A DNA stretch of 64,000 bases from Echinarachnius parma (taxonomy: Eukaryota > Echinodermata > Echinoidea > Clypeasteroida > Echinarachniidae): NCBI GenBank assembly GCA_037951105.1, contig JBAMJV010008411.1, forward strand, positions 1 to 64,000. Direction: 5' to 3'. Position 1 is the first letter of the stretch. Each line of letters begins with the position of its first letter. Positions 14,501-50,500 of this stretch are shown one piece after another. The notes below the pieces were generated by a model. The model was not told the origin of the DNA, did no database searches, and was given only the letters and a program-made list of their open reading frames with translations. The position numbers were made by a program, and so were the translations under genes.

Positions 14501-17500
14501 TGCATGTATCTGTGCTATTCCTGAAATCACAAACAAAGTGTATTAGCGTGAAATCTGATTGACAGACTATTCCAATTGAAATCTACTACATGTATCATTT
14601 GTAATATTTAAAAACCAATGATAATATCAAATAATCTTCATAAACATGTGTGCAATAACACAGAAAATTAAGATATCAATAAGACATTGTTCAGATTACA
14701 GTACACCATCTGATGATTACACAGGAACAAAACGTGTATGACAAACCATCTGTTTTCTTAATCAGGTTAAGAAATAAAGTCTTATTAGATGCCATATGAC
14801 AGAAATTAAAATCTCAAAACAAGTTTTATTATCATAGTCAGCAACCAAATCATTGGCATGAATACACAACATTGGTTTCTTTTTATATGTCATATAACTT
14901 TTATAATTCTGTTTGAAATAGCAAAGTGGGTAACATGCGCACATATATATGAATTATTGCATTCAACCTTCCCACAGTTATAAGATCACCCACAGAGTCT
15001 TCATATTCACATCAAATATAATTTTTGTCTATGAAAACCCTAAACAAAGTTATCAGGTAATACTGTAAATTAATACAGTTCTCGGCTGATTCCTGCAAAT
15101 AAACATGGGAATGCACATTCCCTAGGTTTAATTAGGTTATGAAGCTAGATGAACATTGATCATTTATACTCTGGCTAAATAACATGAATACATATTATCA
15201 ACAACTCCATAATTTTATTTTAAACTTAGCAAAGTGGCAATAATTTTAGTTTATGATATCCACATGAACTATCTATTTCTTAAAATTGGCAAGCTGTTCG
15301 CAGAACAGTTTAAGTCCACCATTGAAAACTATTTGAAAAACAGTTAGAGCCAACCATCAAATTTCTACTTTAAAAATTTTGCTCCGCTTACATCTTTTTG
15401 AAGGAAATTCTCAGAAACAAAATTCATCATGGATGTTTTAGTTGTCTTGAGTGTTCGCAGTAATTTTGCTTTCAAAGCGTATACAGCAATAATAGTTTGT
15501 ATTCGCGGAAATACAGCAACAGTTCATGATTGCTAAAATACAGCATCAAGTTCATGTTTGCGAAACTACAGCAACAGTTTGTATTTGTAAACATTCCAGC
15601 TACATGGTTCGCAGAGATTTCAGCTACATTCAATACATTTCTCGTGGTATTCTCAGACTGTCGGTTATGCGAGAGATATATTTACAGTTCGTTTCTCGAA
15701 TAATATTGTCCAGAGTGAAGAAATGAAGTATGCTGAATAAACTGTATACAACATCCAGCATTGCAAGAAAATAAATTGTCTATTTCTTTCTAACATTTGT
15801 ACAATATTGAGTTTAAAACATCCATGTATACTTGTGAAAAATACATTTGCCTATTTGTGTGTACTTCAGAACCAACATTTACAAGACAAATCTATATGTT
15901 CATACACACTAATTGAGTGTTTTATTGAACTTACTGAAAACCCCTCTTTTAAAGTATGACTTTCACATGCTACATGTATGTTTGCATAAAATTGTAACAT
16001 CACTTTTCGGAATAGCACTTTATGCATAATCATGTGCTCAAATAATCTTGATTAAAAATAGACAATTTCCAATTTCCAGGTTATCAAAATCGGTACAATT
16101 TTTACTGTTTGTTTTTAACACAGCTGAGGCTTACAAATACATTTTTTTTTAACATAACAATTATCATAAAGTCACTTTGCTTTTCCACAAATATACCTTA
16201 AAAATCATGACATCAGTCTTATGTTTACAAAATGCCAAGTAACTTACAAAAAGGCAAATCCTATTCTTTTTACAAAATGCATTTCAGAATGTAAACGTTC
16301 AAATACACAAAATGGCACAGAACATAATTCTTTTCCCCACTTGATTTTGTGGCTCCAACTTACTTAAAGACATGTATACATTATACAATAAAACAATCAT
16401 TTTCTGACAAAGACAGGATTGACTGTACTATTAATTGTGAATCTTTATGTTACGGGCGCTGCTGTAACTTGTAACTGTTACTTCATGTTGTTCTGTGTGA
16501 CCACTAAGACAGGTTTGACTGAACTAGTCATCGTGCATCTTTGTGTAACAGGGCCCTACTGTAAGTTGTAATTGCTACTTCATAATGTGACGACTTAGAC
16601 AGGTTCGACTACTACAGGTCCGTGCTGTACCTTGTAACTGTTAGTTCAAGGTGTTCTTTGTGACCACTAAGTCAGGTTTGAGTGTACTTTTAATCATGAA
16701 TCTTTGTTACGGGGCCCTGCTGTAACTTGAAACTGCTACTTCACAATGTGATGACTTAGACATGTTTAACTACTATGGGGCCCTTGTAATTGCTACATCA
16801 TGGTGTTCTGTGACTATTTTGCAGGTTACGTAAGGACATGGGCAGCATCATGCAGACCCTGGTGGCTAACATGGAGGATGAAGAGGACAGCCATCGCCAT
16901 AGCAACAATGGACTCGTCATCGTCCTCTCCCTGGTGACATCATGCCTCCGGTCACTCAAGGTAAACATTCAATCATTTTTGTTAATGTTCATTTGTCACC
17001 CATTCCATTTTATTCCAATAAAGAGGAGTGTAACAGTTTCTTTGGCTCTCAGAAATACAATAGGAAGACTAGTATCCCAACTAAAAAACCACATGATGTT
17101 TATATCATGGATAAGCTGCGTTTCCAATTTCCACACAGAATGTGACTTTGTGGGTTACTCCTCATGTAAATAAGCTAAAACATTAGAGTTTATCATCTAA
17201 TCATGGGAATTCATTGGTTAAAAAGAATTCAAGTTCCAAGTGTGCATCGCATGCTTATTTATTTGTAGTTGTCATGGTAGTTGTGTTTTTGGATAAACAC
17301 GCTATTAGTCTGGACAATTACACTTCTTTTTTTAATTATGGTAATTCATCTCTATTATTTTGGTTATGTTCTGTTTCAATATCTATGTGAGTTATTGCAG
17401 CCCAACCATGCACAGTAGGGGATTCCCCCATGGCCCATCTACGTAACTTTGTTTTTGTAATGTCATAATAGATACATAATCTATCAAAGTGAGTGTTAAT

Positions 17501-47500: not shown

Positions 47501-50500
47501 GTTCCCATTCACATTGTACAGTATGTCACACACGTGACCCAGACATCCCCACACAATAAAATACATTAAAAAACAATCGTTTGAGTTTTTTTTTTTTTTG
47601 TACCATTTTCTTACTTACAGATATATTTCTGTTGTCTGATACTAATATGAACATTTGAGCTTTTCATATCTCACAGGATTTTCAAAGTGAAATTGAGTTT
47701 TAAAAAGTTTCTTCAAAAATGCTCCCGTGCAAAGTCACACACGTGACCGATGCCATTTGACCTCTGTCCTTGGGTAACGTAATCCTAATAAAATCTTTTG
47801 TGTTACACTTGAAAGACTTCAACATATGCAAGTCATATATGAAGTTCACATCATCATACCTCCTATACTTACTGAAATATTAGCATTCGATTTCAAAAAT
47901 TTTCATATTTTGGGTCACACACGTGACCAAGAATGGCCCAAATGTGGAATATAATGAAGAGTGTACATTTTCCATAGGCTCCAATAGACCGCTTCGGTAA
48001 TGTATGCAAATAATATGCGTATGACGTCAGCGTATGACGTCACCCGTTGGCAAGCTTAACAATAGTAACTAGGTCCGGCAAGCTCCGGCCAACTTACCTT
48101 GCCGGACCTAGTTACTATTGTTAAGCTTGACGACGGAGAGTCTGACGTCATACGCATATTATTTGCATACATTACAGAAGCGGTCTATTGAGATATGACA
48201 GAATCTGTCAACAAGTTTACAAAGATAACAGGCTACTGGAATATCAATTTAGTATAAGCTATATATAGTGTATACAGGGCTCGACACTAGCACTTGCCCG
48301 CTTGCCCGGGGCAAGTCAAATTTGGTGTCGGGCAAGTAAAATTTATTAAATTGTCTAGTTTGCTTGCCCAATGGGGCAACTAAATAATCGTTAAACTACA
48401 AGAGAACAATGTAATTTCATATGTGTTTATCTCATCAAGAAGTAGAAGGGCATGTAAATCTTATATTGGGCAAGTAAAATGTCAAAATATATGATTTTAC
48501 TTTCCCGAATGGTCCAGTACAGAAAAGGGATAGTGTGGAGGCTTGGTACAGTATATACATGTAGTATGTACTTTGTATGTATGAATATAAATTAATCCAT
48601 TTTACATTTTACATGTATTTTTTACATACTGTACACTTTATATTTAGATGTACATAATTTGTATTCTTATCCGATACATGTATGGATCCCCTCCTCTTCA
48701 CTTTGAATATAACAAAACAGAAAAATCCTACTGCCACCTTCCATGCACCCTGCCTTACAGCATGTAATACTCCTTCTCACCTACCAACTTTGAATATGAT
48801 AATAATTAATAACATATCATAATTCATATCACACGCATATAACTCTGGATATGACAACATAATCCATTTAACTTACTTGTTCCCCGATGGCGATGCATCC
48901 TCACTCACATAAGGAACTAGTCAACATCCAAAAGTACTTAACAAATCTCACCAGAATCATTTGATATAATGCATACACCTTTGAAGTGTTTGAATGTTTT
49001 ACACTTGGCTAGGTTGCCTTGATATATTGCTACGTGTTCGCTCAATAAAGAGATGTTCAATGGTGTACGTTGTTTTGATTGCGCATTTCAAGATCCCTGG
49101 GGGGCATTGATTGCGCATTTCAAGAGCCCTTGGGGGGCATTCTGAAAATCCTAGGGAGATACGAGTCTTAACTTGAAAAGGACACGTAACTATTTGTATT
49201 CTGAAAGCAGACTTTAGACCATCTTAAGTCCATATCATGGATATTAAAGGGTACCACCACCCAAAAATAATATTCTTATAAATGAAAGGTAACATCTTTA
49301 GTAGGCCATTCCATCAACAAGTTCAGAAAAATATGTTATGGCGGCACCCGCGGAATTCCATGGGTTTTTAGTCGGATAAAAGCGATCACGATTTTAGGAA
49401 GACAATGACCTCTGAAATTTCTATAAAACATCCCTATCATGAACCACATGGTAAGACAAAAGAGACTCGGGCATTCTACCCCGGGTCTACCCCTCCCCCA
49501 CCCAGCTCTTTTGAACATGTCATTGCAATACAACCTTTCAGTGAACAGTATAAACCCGACCCATCCCTGGTACACTCTGTTTAAATGTTTACAATAATAA
49601 TAATGCAAATACATTTAATGATGAAATTGTATGCATGACAAACTAGTAACGAAGTGCACTCGATGTATTTTCGTTATTTTCTTCTCTTTTTTTTGCGAAG
49701 TTAGTAAGGAAGTGCATGGCGGTGAGACGCCTTCTCCCCCTTTTCCAAATCTGCAGGATTTTGTCTTTAAAGTTTGATTTCCAAATTCAGTATTATCTCC
49801 ATGGTATACGTTTATCATCTTCTTGTGAAACCCCCGGATATATTAATTAATAAATGTTTATTCTAAATTCCAAACTGTGTTTTTGTATTTTCTCAGAGAA
49901 TTATGGATATAAAACAGTTAAGAGATTTTATTGATTATGAATACATCAATTTGTGTGTTTTTGAATTTTCTTGAAGAATGTTGGGAATCTTTTGAATTTT
50001 GAAGATAAATCAGTCCAAAAATATTTATTGATTCTGTATTGCTTTATTGTATTCTCTTTCTTAGTTTTGTGTGTCTCGTCTTGGTGCATTGGACATTATG
50101 TTGATGATAGCCAAACATCTACCTGATGACATCATACTGGACAGAATCATTCCCTGTATTGTAAGTATTGAGGCTGATTGGGATGTGTTAGAATCACAAA
50201 CTTAATAATACAATGTGAAGAAATACATTACGAATTAAGACAAAATTTATCCAGTACACCCTAAATGTAGGTCGGCCGGAATTCACAAATTAAATCATGG
50301 TTCTAAAAGTATGATATCATTTCATGACATCATTTTAAACCATGGTTTAGATCACATATGGAAGGCCAGGTTTTGTGAGAAAAAAGGTTATTGATTGACA
50401 AAATGACTTATTTTCAGCAAAACTTGTGTTGTTTAGTAGTTTCAACAGCGGAGTTCCATATAATTTTGGAAATGAGAGATGAACATTAGTAGTCTTCGAA

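Follow-up and report, generated by a model that had tools for sequence, protein, structure and literature searches.

A 64,000-nucleotide stretch of the Echinarachnius parma genome (positions 1 to 64,000 of contig JBAMJV010008411.1, assembly GCA_037951105.1; hereafter the window) carries, inside one intron of the gene VPS15, an array of three minus-strand paralogues that encode tetratricopeptide repeats (TPR) followed by a domain resembling the Toll/interleukin-1 receptor (TIR) domain. The architecture of this array, its duplication and the breakage of gene 1, as assembled, are directly evident in the window. We consider it likely that the array arose where it now lies, antisense in intron 8 of VPS15, by multiplication of a gene joining a TTC22-like region to a C-terminal TIR domain; that the intact copies, genes 2 and 3, most likely encode proteins that signal inside the cell; and that gene 1 is either decaying or a truncated allele.

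Three antisense paralogues in intron 8 of VPS15

Exons of VPS15 were matched in order on the plus strand, from position 2460 to near the end of the window, by tblastn with the human VPS15 sequence as the query. Exon 9 was missed by this search and was located by reading the sequence directly. Independent PDB searches with three of the exons all point to PIK3R4 (Phosphoinositide 3-kinase regulatory subunit 4): 56806-56925 (E 2.6e-18), 16826-16960 against residues 346-390 (E 2.1e-4), and 50065-50160 against residues 391-421 (E 0.089), where the five matches listed were all to the same protein. The last of these values is weak because exon 9 encodes 32 amino acids, but its residues, from 391 on, directly continue those of exon 8, which run to 390. 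Exon 8 (16825..16960, plus strand) follows an acceptor AG at 16823-16824, and its codons at 16826-16960 correspond to human residues 346-390. Exon 9 (50065..50160, plus strand) begins with human residue 391 and is followed by a donor GT at 50161. Intron 8, which hosts the array, spans 16961..50064 (plus strand; 33,104 bp), opening with GT at 16961-16962 and closing with AG at 50063-50064; the remaining gaps between matched VPS15 exon stretches measure 392 to 8,820 bp. The first-pass annotation, made from the letters of the window, had named VPS15 as the host and placed the intron edges at 16961..50064, and both hold, with PIK3R4 matches on either side and GT and AG in place.

The same annotation described three minus-strand genes spaced by about 12 kb within this intron, and open reading frames (ORFs) and self-comparison confirm that layout. 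The start-to-start distances of the three paralogues are ~12.6 and ~11.8 kb. Comparison of the intron with itself reveals three units in register. Their homology begins at 18066, 30769 and 42567 and continues through the genes; upstream of these it resumes in blocks at ~25.1-29.0, 35.5-37.3 and 48.6-49.1 kb. The array thus delimited extends from 18066 to 49097, or ~31 kb counting unmatched stretches between the units, and ~2 kb of the intron is left outside it. As judged from the predicted exon borders, all three units fall between exons 8 and 9 of VPS15, inside one intron, and would qualify as nested genes. In protein sequence, gene 2 is 82% identical to gene 3, and the two fragments of gene 1 are 75% and 81% identical to it. 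The comparison supports growth of the array in place, which would have occurred by tandem duplication of ~12-kb units inside VPS15. An earlier description of the cluster as growing inside an autophagy gene therefore stands as regards tandem duplication inside VPS15, but one of the three copies is now broken.

Genes 2 (32012..34207, minus strand) and 3 (43805..46078, minus strand) each consist of one uninterrupted reading frame, 731 codons long in gene 2 and 757 in gene 3, as expected from the first-pass model of one coding exon per gene. Relative to gene 2, gene 3 has a 21-residue insert rich in Lys, Thr and Gln, which coincides with an 11-bp tandem repeat within its ORF (45234..45319, minus strand). 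The model fails for gene 1 (19347..22150, minus strand), which had been read as one coding exon starting at 22150. That position holds TTG rather than ATG, and the next in-frame Met is codon 14. Moreover, Tandem Repeats Finder detects an exact 20-bp tandem duplication (20620..20659, minus strand) that shifts the reading frame ahead of the TIR region, and gene 1 is therefore not one coding exon. Indeed, tblastn with gene 2 recovers gene 1 as two pieces whose frames differ; they adjoin at 20642/20639 and both include residues 318-323; the TPR part occupies 20525-22150, and the rest, including the TIR region, 19347-20528. We interpret gene 1 as a decaying copy or a truncated allele, broken as assembled, with an assembly error as an alternative cause. 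Its broken state was not mentioned in the first-pass annotation. Gene 1 also contains a 90-bp coding repeat in 6.9 copies (21515..22135, minus strand), so that an N-terminal unit of 30 amino acids found once in genes 2 and 3 is present about seven times here.

Upstream of each coding region, a predicted noncoding exon and 5' intron are supported by conserved blocks and splice-site contexts, in agreement with the gene structure proposed earlier. Of the four minus-strand occurrences of the candidate donor AGTAAGTT in the intron, three are at the lower edge of a conserved upstream block. These blocks are the candidate noncoding first exons of gene 1 (25404..25718), gene 2 (35952..36287) and gene 3 (48877..49097), all on the minus strand; each lies above its donor, and the coordinates delimit the conserved block rather than a determined 5' end. 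In each of the three genes an acceptor context, TTTTCTCTTTAYACCAG directly before GCAG (CCAG/GCAG), is found 8 nt ahead of the start position. The minus-strand splices predicted for the intact copies join 48877 to 46086 in gene 3 and 35952 to 34215 in gene 2. Identity is 74-89% within 240 bp on the exon side of the donor (6/6 comparisons) and 36-66% on the intron side (9/9), a drop that in gene 2 may partly reflect inserted repeats. The last 100 bp of the 5' intron before the acceptor are 74-84% identical, falling to 42-47% in the 150 bp beyond.

Downstream, the 3' flanks of gene 1 (18066..19346), gene 2 (30769..32011) and gene 3 (42567..43804), all on the minus strand, are homologous to one another and contain decayed retroelement-like sequence, with words resembling reverse transcriptase. 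Read from its 5' end, the duplicated unit would begin with a candidate noncoding first exon and a 5' intron, continue with the coding region, which forms one exon in genes 2 and 3, and end with the common 3' flank. The flanks had been called remnants of long interspersed elements, one per gene. Their place in the duplicated unit is borne out, but the evidence for that identity is weak: one of nine scanned fragments, seven of which came from the 3' flanks, matches RVT_1, at 12 bits (E 0.18) against a cut-off of 29.6, and the other eight gave no match. The matching fragment lies in the gene 3 flank. ATTAAA occurs once below gene 1 and once below gene 2 in the 1500 nt scanned past the stop codon, and neither AATAAA nor ATTAAA occurs in the 1500 nt below the stop of gene 3.

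Several repeats lie in and beside the units. A minisatellite with the 16-bp unit GGTTCGTTATTCCGAA occupies 34374-34859, within gene 2's 5' intron, and recurs at 41995-42560, just below the gene 3 unit. The two are partly inverted with respect to each other (arms 34634-34733 and 42369-42468, 94% complementary), an arrangement that could have helped rearrangement. A separate inverted repeat at 28227-28768, with 243-nt arms that are 77% complementary and 56 nt apart, is possibly a small mobile element.

The TPR part and the C-terminal domain

The TPR assignment made in the first pass is supported: TPR_2 of Pfam scores 43-46 bits against a cut-off of 27 (E 1.8e-11 to 3.5e-12) in all three TPR-bearing ORFs. 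In the PDB, natural TPR proteins score at most 22 bits and designed consensus TPRs up to 75 bits. A closer relation was found with human TTC22 (569 amino acids), for which the E-values derive from comparison with three sequences. TTC22 residues 22-460 are collinear with genes 2 and 3 (107 and 89 bits; best E 5e-28), and residues 60-290 with the TPR fragment of gene 1 (74 bits). In a control comparison, gene 2 scored 102 bits. The highest score among 300 residue shuffles was 25.8, that among 300 shuffles of 34-residue blocks was 50.8, and the reversed sequence gave 18.1. The score exceeds all of these controls, and the relation therefore goes beyond generic TPR. TTC22 gave no significant match to the TIR region, where the best score was 12.7 bits (E 10), or to the stretch preceding it (16.5 bits, E 0.6), and it differs from the intact array genes in that these have one coding exon. 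On these alignments the non-TIR part appears to be a TTC22-like helical-repeat region, a relation absent from the first-pass annotation. One result speaks against this assignment: gene 2 also scores 32.6 bits with RPN7 (PF10602), another helical-repeat family, whose cut-off is 29.6.

We also considered whether the TPR part belongs to the IFIT family of interferon-induced TPR proteins. In IFIT genes the first exon is short or noncoding and most of the protein is encoded by one exon, a layout that, together with the TPR themselves, resembles that of the array genes. IFIT structures are present in the PDB. None appeared among the PDB matches of gene 3 (E up to 1; 47 sequences) or gene 2 (E up to 10; 51 sequences), and TTC22 was matched instead, at 5e-28; we reject membership of the IFIT family. 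Two further candidates were set aside. NCBIfam returned generic bacterial TPR models, the best being PilW, whose 38.6 bits fall far short of its cut-off of 154. When 106 contig stretches were scanned with two short peptide patterns taken from the TPR part, two loci of Riflebacteria emerged, with 20-21% identity confined to the TPR region, which we took as generic TPR.

The C-terminal domain looks like a divergent TIR domain, an assignment that draws on sequence profiles. In gene 2 it comprises residues 591-731 (141 residues; 32015..32437, minus strand), and in isolation it scores 23.1 bits with PF01582, above the cut-off of 21.3 (E 7.4e-5). All three isolated domains match PF01582 at E up to 10, that of gene 2 best; the domain of gene 3 lies at 43808..44245 (minus strand). 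A profile comparison with hhalign against seven known TIR domains gave a score of 31.5 (E 1.3e-4 for one comparison); the best of 200 column shuffles reached 21.9, and the reversed profile 15.4. The alignment covers residues 5-109 of 141 and places HDFYVI on YDAFVS. It also pairs RDTPLGK with RDFIPGK, in which the Pro is displaced by one position.

Several results weigh against the TIR assignment. Scored as full ORFs, the proteins fall under the PF01582 cut-off of 21.3 (gene 3, 15.3; gene 2, 20.0; gene 1 fragment, 19.1). The probability given by hhalign is 54%, and a plain hidden Markov model of the seven TIR domains yields 14.8, 12.8 and 9.0 bits, with E between 0.03 and 1.7. A PDB search with a TIR profile built from the three paralogues returned a single match, plant SNC1, in the TIR register at E 0.71. 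Two AlphaFold2 models, one made from two sequences and one from three, have mean predicted local distance difference test (pLDDT) scores of 39.8 and 35.1, too low to confirm the fold. The first-pass annotation had proposed a profile search and structure prediction as checks on its TIR call. The call thus survives in part: the isolated gene 2 domain exceeds the Pfam cut-off (23.1 against 21.3 bits) and hhalign scores above its shuffles, but whole proteins do not reach the cut-off and the structural models are unusable. PADLOC gave no match for any of the three TIR domains.

Genes 1 and 2 have a Glu that aligns with a Glu of plant SNC1, in the profile of the three, and with one of the set of seven TIR domains; this would be the catalytic position of TIR NAD-cleaving enzymes (NADases), which have a Glu in the third helix. 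In gene 3, codon 44005-44003 (GGA) encodes Gly at this position, a loss that the first-pass annotation did not record. SARM1 and SNC1 resemble the array in the putative TIR domain and in the Glu aligned in genes 1 and 2. They differ in their partner domains (ARM-SAM in SARM1, NB-ARC-LRR in plant TIR proteins), in whose place the array has TPR, and gene 3 lacks the Glu. These alignments raise the possibility that the TIR domain is an NAD-cleaving enzyme of the SARM1 or plant type, triggered by TPR-driven assembly, with gene 2 active and gene 3 inactive. The Glu and its replacement in gene 3 would fit such a scheme, but the sequence RDTPLGK in the box 2 region is TLR-like, many non-enzymatic TLR-type TIRs retain this Glu, and the AlphaFold2 models (mean pLDDT 39.8 and 35.1) lend it no help; we regard it as quite unlikely.

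Selection, decay and possible function

Selection has acted against amino-acid change in the array. Nonsynonymous (dN) and synonymous (dS) divergence were estimated by the method of Nei and Gojobori, with Fisher tests on rounded counts for six of the nine comparisons. Genes 2 and 3 align over 731 codons with no stop at ~10% nucleotide divergence, and over these codons dN is 0.094 and dS 0.151, a ratio of 0.62 (Fisher p 0.002). Their TIR domains have a ratio of 0.40 (p 0.012), and the TIR domain of gene 1 compared with those of genes 2 and 3 gives 0.32 and 0.35 (p 0.006 and 0.003). The corresponding values are 0.56 and 0.55 for the whole second fragment of gene 1 and 0.47 and 0.44 for its TPR piece (p 0.0005 with gene 2). 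All nine ratios are below 1, the lowest being those of the TIR domain (0.32-0.40). The dS values, 0.14-0.23, are similar to the distances of 0.18-0.24 between the 3' flanks. Constraint is weak in the TPR part plus linker of genes 2 and 3, with a ratio of 0.69 (p 0.032), a point against the reading that we favor.

This last value is one of several features consistent with an array of decaying duplicates without present function, whose genes 2 and 3 still have open frames solely on account of their youth. Gene 1 is broken twice, by its TTG start and by the frameshift, and gene 3 carries both the simple-repeat insert and the Glu-to-Gly change. Such general decay is rather unlikely, however, given that genes 2 and 3 hold their 731 aligned codons open at this divergence and that dN lies under dS in every comparison, most strongly in the TIR domain. 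We favor the interpretation that the two intact copies encode signalling proteins, most likely intracellular. The TPR part may bind a partner or ligand, and this binding would bring the C-terminal TIR domains together, by analogy with other proteins that join repeats to TIR. The assembled TIR domains could then signal, either as an enzyme or as an adaptor. An immune role for the array, as the first-pass annotation proposed, is an inference from the TIR domain.

The antisense position in a 33-kb intron also raises the question of whether opposed transcription couples the array to VPS15, such that inducing one lowers the other. Transcriptional interference of nested genes is reported for Drosophila (PMC8467205), and interference is also reported for intronic L1 and nested genes (PMC3192792). 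On the other hand, mammalian nested pairs are described as having no excess expression divergence (PMC8467205), and Drosophila tim2 and 2mit are seemingly not functionally related (PMC3786989). We consider coupling of this kind improbable. It is tempting, if highly speculative and very improbable, to picture a TTC22-TIR fusion family in which an enzyme-competent copy (gene 2) is held in check on co-assembly by a copy without the Glu (gene 3), the pair being kept in VPS15 so that vesicle-sorting or autophagy control and TIR signalling switch together.

Relation to known systems and other features of the window

To our knowledge, little function has been assigned to human TTC22. If relatives of TTC22 in animals carry TIR domains, this would hint that the TTC22 TPR scaffold serves in signalling and that a TIR was gained or lost along the way. 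No link between TTC22 and TIR was found in a literature search that left most subscription papers outside its reach. Portions of PMC5787515 and PMC6321704 that were available hold nothing bearing on a TTC22-TIR family, and neither do the NLRs with TPR and TIR-only proteins of Hydra in the accessible part of PMC7642931.

The domain pair itself has precedents. A study of oyster immune genes (PMC4346834) recognizes a TIR-TPR class, and one on the sea hare (PMC9334734) has TIR-TPR among its abbreviations. The likeness to our array is in the pairing of TIR with TPR, and nesting in VPS15 is unmentioned in the portions consulted of either paper. Coral TPR-CHAT families, with 276 and 304 copies in two Acropora genomes (PMC12314368), likewise combine a TPR array with a C-terminal effector-type domain and expand by tandem duplication; they have CHAT where the array has TIR, and nesting is again unmentioned in the text at hand. 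Intronic genes make up ~6% of Drosophila genes (PMC3786989). Among them, 2mit is a protein-coding gene antisense in an intron of tim2, as the array genes are in VPS15, but it is a single gene rather than a tandem array of three. The TIR-TPR class is thus already known and nested genes are common, and the array is a further, partly decayed example. Filling ~31 of 33 kb, it is a natural case of an intron that tolerates the growth of nested genes.

Outside the array, VPS15 has irregularities of its own. In exon 1 (2460-2596), residues 1-12 and 9-46 are in different frames, as if a base had been lost near 2490, which may be a property of the allele or an assembly error. The exon for human residues 622-667 is repeated, clean at 59512-59649, with a stop at 59724-59831 and in part at 59959-60054; the repeats at 59512-60054 are relics of exon duplication. 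The exon at 5565-5675 is also partly repeated downstream, with a stop codon, at 5828-5878. Finally, tandem repeats of 166 and 162 bp are found at 9938-10717 and 13706-14189, in the VPS15 intron before the one that hosts the array.

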